The notes below the pieces were generated by a model. The model was given only the letters and a program-made list of their open reading frames with translations, was not told where the DNA came from and made no database searches. This document shows, in pieces, positions 43,439-51,326 of a stretch of 64,000 bases of DNA. Made by a program: the position numbers and the translations under genes. This DNA is from Mechercharimyces sp. CAU 1602 (GTDB lineage: Bacteria > Bacillota > Bacilli > Thermoactinomycetales > JANTPT01): the NCBI RefSeq assembly GCF_024753565.1, contig NZ_JANTPT010000001.1, forward strand, positions 1,815,336 to 1,879,335, read 5' to 3'. Position 1 is the first letter of the stretch; each line of letters opens with the position of its first letter.

Positions 43439-44152
43439 ATGATTCCAATCCACGCTGGAATAATACTTGCTGCAGGTGTCGGCAATCGTTTTCAATCCGA
43501 CAAACCCAAACAATATTTCACTATTGATGATAAGCCAATTTTATTTTACACAATTCAATCCATGCTAAAAGCCTCCATCCTTGATCGTATTATCATCGTA
43601 TTTTCTAAACCATATCTGGAATACGGAGATAATATGATTAAAGAAACCTTTTCCCTCCAAGAGCAAACGCGCATCCATGTGTGTGCAGGTGGGGAGACAA
43701 GACAAGAGTCTCTATATAATGGGGTGCTGTATGCACAGCAGACATTTGACGCTCCTCAATTAAAAATTGTAAGCCATGATGCTGCTCGACCTTTATTGCC
43801 TGAAGAGGTAATTGATGAGAACATTGCGCTCATCCAACCTGGGAAAAGTGTAGATACGGTCAGACGTGTCTACGATACGATGTTATACAAAGACGAGAGT
43901 GGGAAAATAGATTTTATTGATCGTGATCGACTCTTTTCAGGACTAACCCCACAATCCTTTTATGCCCACGATTATCTAAACGCGTACGAACAGTTAGGTG
44001 ATACTCACAGCACCTATACATGCGCTTGTTCGCTCATGGCTGCGGCTGGGTATGAGATTCTCCTATATATAACGAATCATCCCATTCATAAAGTAACCGT
44101 GCCAGAAGATGCTACTATCATAAAACAACATTTAAAGGAGTGGGCGCTTTGA
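43439..44152 (+). CDS. tarI: D-ribitol-5-phosphate cytidylyltransferase (TarI)
   Basis: 237 residues. IspD-like fold with the nucleotide loop GIILAAGVGNRFQSDKPKQY and SHDAARPLLP near residue 120. IspD and TarI resemble one another, but the gene runs straight into a tarJ homologue (4-base overlap TTGA), so it makes CDP-ribitol for wall teichoic acid. The ATG at 43439 sits immediately after AAAGGGG with no spacer, which is unusual. A TATAAT-like -10 (43396-43401) stands upstream, its -35 unclear. Confidence 0.88.
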   Translation: MIPIHAGIILAAGVGNRFQSDKPKQYFTIDDKPILFYTIQSMLKASILDRIIIVFSKPYLEYGDNMIKETFSLQEQTRIHVCAGGETRQESLYNGVLYAQQTFDAPQLKIVSHDAARPLLPEEVIDENIALIQPGKSVDTVRRVYDTMLYKDESGKIDFIDRDRLFSGLTPQSFYAHDYLNAYEQLGDTHSTYTCACSLMAAAGYEILLYITNHPIHKVTVPEDATIIKQHLKEWAL

Positions 44153-45168
44153 AAAGCAAAAAGGTCATGCTTTATCTGCCCGAAAAATTACGTGTCGAAG
44201 AGGTAGAGATCAAAAAAAAAGGGATCATCGTTAAACCGAGCTACTTATCTGTCTGCAATGCGGATCTTCGCTATTACTATGGTGACCGTCCCAGTGAAGT
44301 CCTAAAAAAGAAATTGCCGCTCGTACTTATTCATGAAGCAGTCGGCAATGTTGTCTACAGTGATGATCCTGCTTTCGTTGAAGGTGACAATGTAGCCATC
44401 GTCCCCATCTCCCGTCATGTTTCACCACTAGCAGAAGAATACAACTACGATTATCCCGGGAGCACCTTTATGTCCAGTTCTGTTGACGGTTGTATGCAAA
44501 CCTTGCTTCCACTTACCGGTGAAAATCTAGTGAAATTTAATGATATCGAACCCCAACATGGCACTGTCATTGAGGTAGCGACGATCGCTATGCAAGCAGT
44601 GAAGAGATTAAAGCGCTTCTACAATCGCCAACCACAAAAGATTGCAGTCTGGGGAACTGGTTCGGTTGCATTTTGGACAGCCCTTCTCCTCCGAGAAGCG
44701 ATGCCAACAGCCCATATTACTGTGATTGGACGCTCGCCTAATAAATTAGAAGCCTTTTCTTTCGTTGATGAAACCATTCTTCATCAAGATATGGATTATA
44801 AAAATGAATTTGATTTGGTCGTGGAAGCTGTTGGCGGGTATGGCACACAAACCGTTATGACCAATGCGATAGATCTTGTTAAGCCCGTTGGCTGTATCTT
44901 AATGTTAGGGGTAAGCGAACAAGAAATAAATGTAAATACGCGAGGGTGGATGGAAAAAGGAATCATTATTCTTACCAGTCATCGCTCCACCTACGACGAC
45001 TTCAAAGACGTAGTAGACATGATTGAAAGTTCTTCACTCGTCAAGGAAAATCTACACAAAAGTGTTTCCTACATTCAACATGTACAACAAGTGGAAGATA
45101 TCCATGAAGCGTTTAATCAAGCTGGAAAACACCAGTTTAAAACAGTAATGAAGTGGGACCTATGCTAG
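44149..45168 (+). CDS. tarJ: Ribulose-5-phosphate reductase (TarJ)
   Basis: 339 residues of the zinc/NADPH alcohol-dehydrogenase superfamily. Starts at TTG 44149 (overlapping the tarI stop) with AAAGGAG upstream. Conserved VCNADLRYYYGDR, HEAVGN and the nucleotide fold IAVWGTGSVAFW identify the TarJ group rather than a classical ADH. It reduces ribulose-5-phosphate to ribitol-5-phosphate, the substrate for TarI. The pair therefore supplies CDP-ribitol. Convergent with the TagF-like gene, shared terminator between. Confidence 0.9.
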   Translation: MKSKKVMLYLPEKLRVEEVEIKKKGIIVKPSYLSVCNADLRYYYGDRPSEVLKKKLPLVLIHEAVGNVVYSDDPAFVEGDNVAIVPISRHVSPLAEEYNYDYPGSTFMSSSVDGCMQTLLPLTGENLVKFNDIEPQHGTVIEVATIAMQAVKRLKRFYNRQPQKIAVWGTGSVAFWTALLLREAMPTAHITVIGRSPNKLEAFSFVDETILHQDMDYKNEFDLVVEAVGGYGTQTVMTNAIDLVKPVGCILMLGVSEQEINVNTRGWMEKGIIILTSHRSTYDDFKDVVDMIESSSLVKENLHKSVSYIQHVQQVEDIHEAFNQAGKHQFKTVMKWDLC

Positions 45169-45173
45169 AAAAA

Positions 45174-45207
45174 AGAGCCAGAACCGCACATAAGCGGCTC
45201 TGGCTCT
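45174..45207. terminator. Bidirectional terminator between tarJ and the TagF-like gene
   Basis: 14-base inverted repeat AGAGCCAGAACCGC / GCGGCTCTGGCTCT with one mismatch, loop ACATAA. Sits between convergent stops at 45168 and 45216, with A and T tracts on both sides. Confidence 0.85.
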
Positions 45208-45215
45208 CTATCTTT

Positions 45216-46511
45216 TTATACAGCTTGTTCTTCTTTATATTTATATTCGATAACTTCTTCTTCTTTCCGTTGAACAATCTCTGAACCACTTCGGTTTACA
45301 AAATCAACAATAAAGTTGGCCAAGCGCTCTGAATTGTTACTTGGCACATCACCGAAGTATTCAGTAACAAACCGCTTAACTTGACTGTTGTCACCTAAAC
45401 GTTTGCTGATCTCTCTTTGCAACTCCAATTCCGTCCTACAAATAGAACCTGGGACAAACTCCTTGTAATCAAAGTAAAATCCACGACTATCTAAATAATC
45501 ATCTAAGTCCTTTGCAAAGAAAACCACCGGCTTACCGAGAAGAGCAAACTCAAAAAAAGTAGAAGAGTAATCGTTTATCAGCATATCAGCAATCAGCATT
45601 AAGTTATTTACGTGCACATTACTAATATCTAAAAACTTATGCGCGTTTCGCTCACTCGGAGGTTGATAAGACGATTTCTTCATAGAAGGATGTTTCTTTA
45701 AAACAAGTACATAGTTATCATCAAAGTGATCGAGCACTTGATCAAAATCCATAAAATGATCTGCATCCACCCGACTTGAAAATCCTCTATAGGTAGGTGT
45801 ATACAGTAAAACTTTTTTGTTCTCCAACTGAGGGTAGTTTTCATATAATCTTGCTTTTTTCTTCATCATATAATCTTCATCAAAAAGAAGATCCACACGT
45901 GGATTAAATATACCCTCAAGAATTTCCCCTTGTGCAAATGACTCTTTATACTTTTCACGGAAGCGATATCCAGGATCTAATACATAATCATATACATGAA
46001 TGATCTGCAATTCATCCTTTTCCTCATTGTCGAGACGTACCAAATTATCGACATTGGCAAGACCAAACTTTTTAAACGCACCGAGAGCATGCCATGTTTG
46101 AATAATAATTTGATCATCATTTCGATCAAGGTACTTAATTAAGCGACAAACGTCCTCCACAAGAATCACTTCGCTCGTCGCCATCAAATATGGCATTCGG
46201 ATCAGTCTGGTAACTATGCTTTGTCCAAAGTAGTTATTATATCTATACATCTTCAGACCATCATATTGCTTCAGTTCTCTTTTCAACAATCTATATTGAA
46301 CGGGACTAACCCCACCAGAACCTAATGAGAGTATCCTTCCTTGCTTGACACGCACTACTTTTTGCAAAAGCCGTGCAAGATAAGGTGTTACTTCTCTCTG
46401 ACAAAATCTCCCTAATCTTGTGTTCTGTTTCATAAAAGAGGGTCGTAAAAATATTTGCGCCAGTTTCGTTCTCACAATTTTGTTTAAAACCTTCTTCATT
46501 ATTCTTTTCAT
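45216..46511 (-). CDS. CDP-glycerol/ribitol glycerophosphotransferase family (TagF/TarL-like)
   Basis: 431 residues. Signature segments: QTWHALGAFKKFG (family GT-B-like motif, usually QTWHGTP), LLYTPTYRG, LVLKKHPSMK and INDYSSTFFEFALLGKPVVFF. This is a membrane-associated polymerase or primase for teichoic acid; whether it adds glycerol or ribitol phosphate cannot be settled from the sequence. The convergent tarI/tarJ pair makes CDP-ribitol, which favours ribitol. The ATG at 46511 follows GAGGTG. A clear sigma-A promoter lies upstream. Confidence 0.85.
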   Translation of the reverse strand: MKRIMKKVLNKIVRTKLAQIFLRPSFMKQNTRLGRFCQREVTPYLARLLQKVVRVKQGRILSLGSGGVSPVQYRLLKRELKQYDGLKMYRYNNYFGQSIVTRLIRMPYLMATSEVILVEDVCRLIKYLDRNDDQIIIQTWHALGAFKKFGLANVDNLVRLDNEEKDELQIIHVYDYVLDPGYRFREKYKESFAQGEILEGIFNPRVDLLFDEDYMMKKKARLYENYPQLENKKVLLYTPTYRGFSSRVDADHFMDFDQVLDHFDDNYVLVLKKHPSMKKSSYQPPSERNAHKFLDISNVHVNNLMLIADMLINDYSSTFFEFALLGKPVVFFAKDLDDYLDSRGFYFDYKEFVPGSICRTELELQREISKRLGDNSQVKRFVTEYFGDVPSNNSERLANFIVDFVNRSGSEIVQRKEEEVIEYKYKEEQAV

Positions 46512-46562
46512 ACGGGAACACCTCAGTATCATTAATAATAAAGCAGAGGCTCACAATAGTAC

Positions 46563-48460: not shown

Positions 48461-48492
48461 AAACCACGTCTGATATGAACAAGACGTGGTTT
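48461..48492. terminator. Terminator downstream of the class A PBP gene
   Basis: AAACCACGTC / GACGTGGTTT (48461-48470, 48483-48492), followed on the minus strand by a T-rich tract. It lies about 48 bases past the PBP stop. Confidence 0.75.
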
Positions 48493-48539: not shown

Positions 48540-51101
48540 TTACTCGCGTAGAGGTTGATCATCACTTGCATCCATGGTGTCCTCATCTGGTGGTGGCTCC
48601 GGATCTCCTTCTGTCGGTGGTGGCTCTGACTCCTCTGGCTCCTCTTCTTCTCCATCAGACTCTCCTTCTCCAGAAGGATCGATCTCTTCTTCTCCAGGAG
48701 AGTCTTCTTCCGCTCTTTCCTCAGCATTTACTTCCTCTTCTAGAGAAGATTGCTCAGACTCACCATCATCTAAATACACCATAATAGAGGGGATAGATAC
48801 TGCCTTTATCATCGAATAGTATCCCGTTGAGCTCTCTGGACCAGTCGCAACGACACGGTAGAAATAAGCAATCTGTCTTGCCCCCACTTGAGTATCTGTC
48901 AACTGACCCGCACTTGTCACACCAATACTTTTCCATGTGCGTCCATCTGTAGACCGCTCTACTCGATACATTATATCTGGGCTATAATCTTCCCAATTCA
49001 ACTTTACACTTCGACTGCTGGCAACGTATTTCAATGTTAGCCACTGGGGAGCACGAACTAAGGTAGGCTCTGGAACACCTGGGTTAACAAACACTGAACC
49101 TTGTTTATCCTTTAGAATATCCGACATCACGGTATGAAAGAGTTTGGCTGGATAATTGTCACCAGTAATCTTCGTCCCACTCAACATGTTAAATACATTA
49201 ACTGACATTAAATATTGATTGGTGTAGCCGATAAACCACCCCACAGAGCGATCACCGTTGTCACCGGTAAATCCTGCTACTTCATGTCCTTTAATCCTTG
49301 CTTCTTTACCTTTACCAACGGACACGTGATACTGCAAAATACGAGTCATATAATATGCAGTCTGCTCATCTAACTGTTGCCGTGGTTTTGTTTTAGGCAA
49401 GTGTTGTTCGTCTCCGTTATATAAAATCTTACGAATCCCACCTGCCTCTACTGCTACCCCCTGATTTGCAAAAGGAATATACGCTTCTGCCATATCCAGC
49501 GCATTTACCCCTTTTTTTGTATGTCCCATTGCTAGGGCTTCTACTGATGATTTTTCTACTGCCTCTAGCTCAAATCCGAAATTTTTAGCATAGGTGGAAG
49601 AAGTTTCTGCCCCCAGCTGATCTTCGATTGTCCATGCAGAATTGATATTGAGGGATTTGGCCGCTGCCTCTTTTAAAGGGAGATCACCATAAATTCGACC
49701 ATCCGTATTGTGAGGTTGCCAACCTTCCACTTGATACGCAGCTGGATCACGAACAACGCTATATTCATCATAATTTTCCTCTTCAATCAATGGCGCATAA
49801 ACCGAAATGGGTCGAATTGCCGTACCTGGTTGAATGTAGGTTTCCACTGTGCGTAATGGAAAACTTGGCATATAACTTGTTCCTTTAGGAAGCTGAACAG
49901 ACTCCTTCTTCTTCACAGTTTCTTTCTTATTTTTCGTTTCTGGTTGTGGCCGCATATAGTACCGCCCACCCCCGATCGCCAAGATCTCCCCTGACTTTGG
50001 ATCCACAACTGTTGCTCCCGCATCAATCTCATTATTGTGGTCAAAAATATCATCATCTTTTAACGCATGATCTAGCGATTCTTGAATTCGAGGGTCGAGA
50101 CTGGTGTATATTTCGTAACCTCCAGTCGTTACTTCTTCAGCTGTCAGTTCATACCGCTCCTGCGCTTCTAACAGAATATAGTGCGTATAGCTCTGATAGT
50201 TTACATCGAAATACTGTTCAAAGAAGGCTTTATCCACACCCAGATCCTTCTCTTGATATTTCTTCAACTCCGTTTGTGGAATAAGTCCCTCCCTTGCCAT
50301 AATAAAAAGAACAACATTACGTCTCTCCAATGCTCGCTCTGGATCATGGTAAGGGTTATAATCCGTAGGTGCTTTAGGCAAACCTGCTAATAATGCAATT
50401 TCGTGAGGCTCTAATTCCTCTTTCGTAATATCCTTACCAAAATAAACTTTAGATGCTAATTTAACTCCCATCACTTGATTACCAAAAGGAATATAGTTTA
50501 AATATGCCGTCAAAATCTCTTCCTTACTATATTGTGACTCTATCTTTTTAGAAACAATTAATTCTTTCACTTTACGCTTATATGTTTTCTGTCTTGTTCC
50601 CATCACTACATTGCGGGCTACTTGCATCGTTATCGTGCTGGCACCTTCTGCTTTACTCATCTCTTGAATATTCACCTTAAAAGCTCGGGCCATCCCTTTG
50701 TAATCGATACCACCATGTTGATAAAAGCGTCGATCTTCAACTGCCACAAACGTTTTCATCAACATCTCTTTCGAAGGCACTTTCTCCATATCTACATATT
50801 CTCGTTTCGGTCCCAATACACCGATAGCTTCATCATTTTTGTCATAGATGGTGGAGCCAAATTGAATATTATTCATCTTATCAAATGGAATCGCATCCGT
50901 TGTAAAATAGAGATATGCAAATGAAGCAAGCACGAGTAACACTCCCACTGTCATGAACAACAGGATACCCTTTATCAACTTTAAAGAAATACGCGCTATC
51001 CCCTTAATGCTCCATCTCTTTCTGATATCATCGTCCGTTTTCTTCCTCCGGCGACTCCATCTCCACTTTGCGACAGTCTTTAATCTCTCCCCTATGTTCA
51101 T
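48540..51101 (-). CDS. Class A penicillin-binding protein with degenerate transpeptidase
   Basis: 853 residues. Cytoplasmic basic tail, one membrane segment (ILLFMTVGVLLVLASFAYLY), GT51 glycosyltransferase with EDRRFYQHGG (catalytic Glu about 122), GASTITMQ and RKVKEL (second Glu about 180). In the transpeptidase domain SxxK reads TAIR (about 427-430, where PGSSFKP is usual), SxN is intact (SLN, 483-485) and KTG reads FTG (611-613). The C-terminus adds an FN3-like domain and an acidic Glu/Pro/Ser tail. The protein should polymerise glycan but probably not crosslink it. Start at 51101 after GGGATGGGGG. Confidence 0.88.
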   Translation of the reverse strand: MNIGERLKTVAKWRWSRRRKKTDDDIRKRWSIKGIARISLKLIKGILLFMTVGVLLVLASFAYLYFTTDAIPFDKMNNIQFGSTIYDKNDEAIGVLGPKREYVDMEKVPSKEMLMKTFVAVEDRRFYQHGGIDYKGMARAFKVNIQEMSKAEGASTITMQVARNVVMGTRQKTYKRKVKELIVSKKIESQYSKEEILTAYLNYIPFGNQVMGVKLASKVYFGKDITKEELEPHEIALLAGLPKAPTDYNPYHDPERALERRNVVLFIMAREGLIPQTELKKYQEKDLGVDKAFFEQYFDVNYQSYTHYILLEAQERYELTAEEVTTGGYEIYTSLDPRIQESLDHALKDDDIFDHNNEIDAGATVVDPKSGEILAIGGGRYYMRPQPETKNKKETVKKKESVQLPKGTSYMPSFPLRTVETYIQPGTAIRPISVYAPLIEEENYDEYSVVRDPAAYQVEGWQPHNTDGRIYGDLPLKEAAAKSLNINSAWTIEDQLGAETSSTYAKNFGFELEAVEKSSVEALAMGHTKKGVNALDMAEAYIPFANQGVAVEAGGIRKILYNGDEQHLPKTKPRQQLDEQTAYYMTRILQYHVSVGKGKEARIKGHEVAGFTGDNGDRSVGWFIGYTNQYLMSVNVFNMLSGTKITGDNYPAKLFHTVMSDILKDKQGSVFVNPGVPEPTLVRAPQWLTLKYVASSRSVKLNWEDYSPDIMYRVERSTDGRTWKSIGVTSAGQLTDTQVGARQIAYFYRVVATGPESSTGYYSMIKAVSIPSIMVYLDDGESEQSSLEEEVNAEERAEEDSPGEEEIDPSGEGESDGEEEEPEESEPPPTEGDPEPPPDEDTMDASDDQPLRE

Positions 51102-51301
51102 GAAACCCCCATCCCACTCATTCTCTGTGAGCATCAGATGTTTTCTCTAATCTGTCCCCCGCAATACATACGATCTAATTTTTTCTCTCTTTAATTCTTC
51201 TCTTTTTCTTTTCTACTATGTATTTGAAAAATCCTTTTTAAATATCCAAATCCACACTAATTCAACATCTTCTACAAAACTCTTTACAAATGAAATAAAA
51301 A

Positions 51302-51326
51302 AAGCGCTATAACCGTGCGCTTTTTA
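51302..51326 (-). terminator. Hairpin in the 372-base gap before yunC
   Basis: AAAAAGCGC...GCGCTTTTT (around 51297-51325) 182 bases past the yunC stop. The rest of 51135-51506 is AT-rich; apart from a 27-codon frame (51421-51504) that I reject, it holds nothing I can support. Confidence 0.55.

Follow-up and report, generated by a model that had tools for sequence, protein, structure and literature searches.

Class A penicillin-binding proteins (PBPs) join a GT51 glycosyltransferase domain to a transpeptidase (TP) domain, which raises the question of what such a protein does once its TP motifs are gone. A gene of this kind lies in the window, a 64,000-nucleotide stretch of the Mechercharimyces sp. 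CAU 1602 genome (2.93 Mb, 11 contigs), within a contig of 2.15 Mb. Its features, together with those of other degenerate cases described below, are collected in Table 1. Judged by eye, the start at Met12 has a better ribosome-binding site than the start of the longest frame.

Table 1 Features of the degenerate class A PBP gene in the window, and degenerate cases in the order
Feature	Position	Strand	Basis or remark
Class A PBP coding sequence, longest frame	48540..51134	-	864 aa, stop-free
Probable start codon (Met12)	51101	-	By eye; GGGGG upstream
N-terminal membrane helix region, residues 43-78	50901..51008	-	Model helix 43-78 and hydrophobic stretch
GT51 transglycosylase domain, residues 109-279	50298..50810	-	Pfam PF00912, 195.8 bits
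First expected catalytic Glu, E133 (AVEDRRFY)	50736..50738	-	Alignment
Second expected catalytic Glu, E191 (RKVKEL)	50562..50564	-	Alignment
Degenerate TP domain, residues 373-669	49128..50018	-	Pfam PF00905, 69.5 bits, profile positions 2-297 of 299
SxxK position, T438-A-I-R441	49812..49823	-	Codons ACG GCA ATT CGA from 49823 down to 49812 (plus-strand coordinates)
SxN position, S494-L-N496	49647..49655	-	Intact; alignment
KTGT position, F622-T-G-D625	49260..49271	-	Alignment; relatives have T at 625
C-terminal FN3-like segment and acidic tail, residues about 695-864	48543..49052	-	By eye
Inverted repeat AAACCACGTCT/AGACGTGGTTT, then T-rich sequence	48461..48492	-	Likely terminator; by eye
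Degenerate group 1			Mechercharimyces PBP (TAIR), L009 (SAIR)
Degenerate group 2, five members in family f5			L026 (TVIQ), L089 (SAIQ), L025 (TALR), L033 (TVIR), L032 (TSLR)
Degenerate group 3, one genus	L153 931-3525; L157 247-2829		SSIM/SSG (L153), SAIT/SSG (L157); SxxK lysine and SxN absent
Degenerate group 4	L048 7435-9453		L048_7435 (SILA)

A sequence-only reading had described TAIR and FTG in place of SxxK and KTG, a kept SxN and normal GT51 motifs, and the frame, translation and alignment bore out every residue it named. When solved class A PBPs are aligned, QPGTAIRP falls on QPGS..KP and AGFTG on AGKTG. Counting as conserved those columns that are at least 90% conserved among intact relatives, the TP domain retains 24 of 32, with the losses S438T, K441R, D527E, L536M, G538H, T608K, K622F and T625D. 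Among SxxK, SxN and KTG, the three motifs expected of a class A PBP, SLN alone is kept. All three are present in 99 of the 111 aligned class A PBP frames, so their loss here is not chance. A search of the sequence for an alternative active-site serine found none.

The glycosyltransferase half is preserved. The GT51 region retains 41 of its 42 conserved columns, the motifs AVEDRRFY, GASTIT and RKVKEL can be read, and both E133 and E191 are present; we take these two glutamates to be catalytic from knowledge of the GT51 family. The protein has the class A order of N-terminal anchor, GT51 domain and TP fold, and its GT51 domain has the catalytic glutamates expected of the class. Because of TAIR and FTG, we class it as a TP-degenerate derivative of class A PBPs and not as a bifunctional enzyme; its score against the PBP1A family model (NCBIfam TIGR02074) is 415.1 bits, below the curated cut-off of 508.75. 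Nor is it a monofunctional GT51 protein, which would have no TP domain, as PF00905 matches over nearly its full length.

A structural model, built on a shallow alignment of 15 sequences, predicts that the overall fold is still that of a class A PBP. Within the TP domain, pLDDT is mostly 80-97, a helix is predicted from residue 437 onwards and a strand over residues 620-625, and superposition on the TP domain of Streptococcus pneumoniae PBP1a gives a TM-score of 0.81 by target (rmsd 2.9). PDB matches of the model are class A PBPs, with Staphylococcus aureus PBP2 first, then Listeria monocytogenes PBP4. These two proteins (2olv, 3dwk, 3zg7) are the closest solved folds and among the closest sequences, but their TP motifs are active, unlike those of the Mechercharimyces PBP. 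Over the whole model the TM-score reaches only 0.39-0.47 by query; the orientation of the domains, together with the disordered tail, probably accounts for this low value. The C-terminal segment (residues about 695-864) had no Pfam match and has a pLDDT under 50. As a separate observation, PDB entry 7u4h, a match to class A PBPs, carries the label PBP1A of Chlamydia trachomatis; Chlamydiae are said to have no class A PBPs (PMC4810414), and the label perhaps needs checking.

Six GT51 proteins are encoded in the genome, the other five with intact SxxK, SxN and KTG, alongside four class B PBPs (a TP match without GT51). Across the 41 other genomes of the order, one holds a clear relative, L009 of genome G019, which belongs to a different family. 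L009 reads SAIR, SLH and LAG, and its TP domain is about 43-44% identical to that of the Mechercharimyces PBP. With a profile of these two sequences L009 scores 514 bits, a value inflated by its own presence in the profile, compared with 303 for the best intact protein. In a GT51-only tree the two sequences group together with support of 98.5/99. They have K441R and the loss of the K622 lysine in common, which suggests a loss of catalysis that predates their divergence, although it may also have happened in parallel. A wider search, covering 400 genomes from the class and 399 from the phylum, gave no additional close relative above 310 bits. A plasmid search gave distant matches only, at less than 60% identity. 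The closest intact proteins of the order, the second members of a tandem pair (L016, L008 and L065), have the same layout of transmembrane segment, GT51, TP and C-terminal extension, and are 43-45% identical over the TP domain and 50-53% over GT51, but unlike the Mechercharimyces PBP they keep SxxK, SxN and KTG. The sequence-only reading had asked whether relatives share TxxR and FTG: the change of lysine to arginine and the loss of the KTG lysine recur in L009, whereas the threonine does not, as L009 keeps the serine, and the KTG position reads LAG. Its broader proposal, a glycan polymerase with a dead TP fold, gains backing from GT51 conservation, motif loss, the predicted fold and the existence of L009.

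The degenerate TP domain looks selectively maintained. Between the Mechercharimyces PBP and L009, fourfold-degenerate sites are saturated (20-28% identical against a chance level of 23%; 28% within the TP domain). That 43% of TP residues are nevertheless identical indicates purifying selection on this domain over at least some of the period after their divergence. The only pair of degenerate proteins close enough for dN/dS is L153/L157, with 0.24 for TP and 0.12 for GT51; the intact pair L017/L018 gives 0.11 and 0.10, respectively. The TP domain of L153/L157 is under somewhat relaxed purifying selection, a value that belongs to this pair and not to the Mechercharimyces PBP, whose synonymous sites are saturated. 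The ratio of TP to GT branch length is 1.76 for the Mechercharimyces PBP, 1.56 for L009 and 2.0 for their stem, compared with a median of 1.08 for intact proteins; set against intact branches, these ratios rank at the 80th-92nd percentile, which makes the acceleration modest and none of the three significant by itself.

A census of 42 genomes of the order counted 241 GT51 genes, with 233 distinct frames read and 229 of them longer than 400 aa. Degenerate TP domains occur in ten of the roughly 229 genes of bifunctional length. All ten have lost the SxxK lysine, most have also lost SxN or the KTG lysine, and the GT51 motifs are kept wherever they were aligned. On the GT51-only tree the ten cases occupy four places. 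In AU tests with constrained trees from a fast search, a single origin of all cases was rejected (p=0.0007), as was a clade uniting the Mechercharimyces PBP and L009 with the five-member group (p=0.0039). Support for the deeper placement of L153/L157 is weak, and the cautious count is therefore three to four origins; judged from these sequences, TP function appears to have been lost at least three, and probably four, separate times. Five other proteins flagged by a motif regular expression (L163, L231, L244, L268 and L317) were intact on reading, and two more (L164 and L166) proved to be truncated frames.

Two side observations concern further GT51 genes. One genus carries 11-12 GT51 genes per genome (G031:C45 11-23 kb, G035:C52 44-56 kb and G040:C12 1-9 kb; L048, L047 and L072), and its tandem class A PBP arrays include short GT51-only genes as well as the degenerate gene of group 4. 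In addition, IMG/VR contigs, several of them 200-512 kb long, encode GT51 proteins in which the N-terminal part is long and a TP domain went undetected (L191-L210); either the contigs are mis-assigned or these are unusual glycosyltransferases of phages.

We consider it probable that the Mechercharimyces PBP acts as a lipid II polymerase only, with the inactive TP fold kept as a structural, regulatory or docking part. As judged from its sequence, the protein would sit in the membrane and its GT51 domain would polymerize glycan strands. The TP fold would form no acyl-enzyme with a stem peptide or a beta-lactam, the nucleophilic serine, the SxxK lysine and the KTG lysine all being gone. Cross-linking would be left to the other PBPs of the genome. 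In this proposal the TP domain is retained for a role that its fold still has, most likely positioning or regulating GT51 and docking partner synthases. A glycosyltransferase-only function is plausible by analogy with Clostridioides difficile PBP1, whose glycosyltransferase is needed for septum synthesis and whose TP activity is dispensable for division, but not for growth (PMC12539705). A TP-deficient PBP1 mutant shows that septum synthesis can still be driven by a class A PBP confined to polymerization, and in the same organism a class B PBP acts without catalysis of its own (PMC12539705). The C. difficile protein is a laboratory mutant, and growth requires both activities of its parent enzyme, whereas the loss in Mechercharimyces is natural.

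The main rival is simple decay, in which the TP domain lost its function after duplication and is on its way out, leaving a plain monofunctional glycosyltransferase. Degenerate TP domains do evolve faster than intact ones, and the domain can be lost, as shown by related genera with GT51-only frames, in some cases adjacent to tandem class A PBP genes. Yet the 864-aa frame is open, three-quarters of the conserved TP columns survive (24/32), and both the TP identity to L009 at saturated synonymous divergence and the dN/dS of the other degenerate pair point to constraint. We regard decay as disfavoured by this evidence for selection and, overall, as unlikely. An error of sequencing or assembly has nothing in its favour: the codon changes involve several bases, the frame is open on a long contig, and an independent genome (G019) has a matching loss; we give this explanation almost no weight.

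Two further readings, both very improbable in our view, leave the pocket a function. In one, Thr438 or some other residue would still give the domain some catalysis or covalent ligand binding, though its specificity would have changed. Exchange of serine for threonine is conservative, SxN is kept and the serine persists in L009, which makes a degree of residual ligand binding possible; in the known TP mechanism, however, the SxxK serine is the nucleophile and key residues of three motifs are needed (PMC4810414), and with both lysines absent from the Mechercharimyces PBP and L009 alike, residual acylation is unlikely. In the other, the fold senses a stem peptide or beta-lactam non-covalently and switches GT51 activity. 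SxN and the fold of the pocket persist, the domain is constrained, and partner proteins regulate the polymerase activity of the class A PBP1b (PMC6325244). Against it, SxN is missing from L009 and most other degenerate cases, and we consider a ligand-sensing pocket possible but unsupported. The preferred reading therefore stays that of a polymerase with a retained, inactive TP fold, for which we infer polymerase activity, a regulatory or docking role and insensitivity to beta-lactams.

Loss of SxxK in a class A PBP is not unprecedented, given the Streptomyces cases and nine more in this order. In Streptomyces, 13 of 100 class A PBP sequences have no SxxK; SxN and KTG are mostly conserved in them, and the author judges these proteins able to function as PBPs (PMC6273383). 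They resemble the Mechercharimyces PBP in combining GT51 with a TP domain that has no SxxK, but the latter has lost KTG as well, and we assume that the two arose independently. In a literature search whose scope took in few subscription papers, the Streptomyces remark (PMC6273383) was the only account of natural TP-dead class A PBPs that we found. Monofunctional GT51 glycosyltransferases likewise carry out glycan polymerization only, as predicted for the Mechercharimyces PBP, but they have no TP domain, whereas it retains one that is predicted to fold. Three points are new here: the nucleophile and both motif lysines (SxxK and KTG) have clearly been lost together, TP degeneration recurs within a single order, and there is evidence that a degenerate domain is under selection.

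A wider reading, which we put forward as speculative and on balance doubtful, is that TP-dead class A PBPs are recurrently evolved and selected polymerases that offer a docking or regulatory platform and make glycan despite a beta-lactam block. Because they would not be acylated by beta-lactams, glycan synthesis could continue when the bifunctional synthases are blocked. The fusion of polymerase and cross-linker in class A PBPs, and any non-catalytic role of the TP domain, are usually probed with engineered point mutants; repeated natural loss of catalysis with the domain kept offers a direct test of that role. Natural TP-dead PBPs also allow one to ask whether exposure to beta-lactams could favour the loss of catalysis.

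The inverted repeat 3′ of the gene was missed by the terminator scan, which had a loop limit of 8. By eye, a terminator-like repeat also lies 5′ of the gene, at about 51300-51325, and with repeats on both sides the gene is probably transcribed alone. Simple promoter scans gave no convincing sigma-70 or ECF site. Upstream lie DUF1805, uppP/bacA, DUF6154, 5′-nucleotidase-like and TauE-like genes; downstream are a Na+/H+ exchanger and a CDP-glycerol transferase-like gene. No gene neighbourhood common to the Mechercharimyces PBP and L009 was found, and as their neighbours differ, no partner can be named from context. The conserved class A PBP locus of this genome holds a single intact gene (L058), whose flanks match those of the tandem-pair locus in related genomes; the gene described here is thus unlinked to that locus. 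Separately, a probable teichoic-acid cluster adjoins the PBP region at positions 43439-46532 of the window; it comprises an IspD/TarI-like cytidylyltransferase, a TarJ-like dehydrogenase beside it and a CDP-glycerol transferase-like gene.
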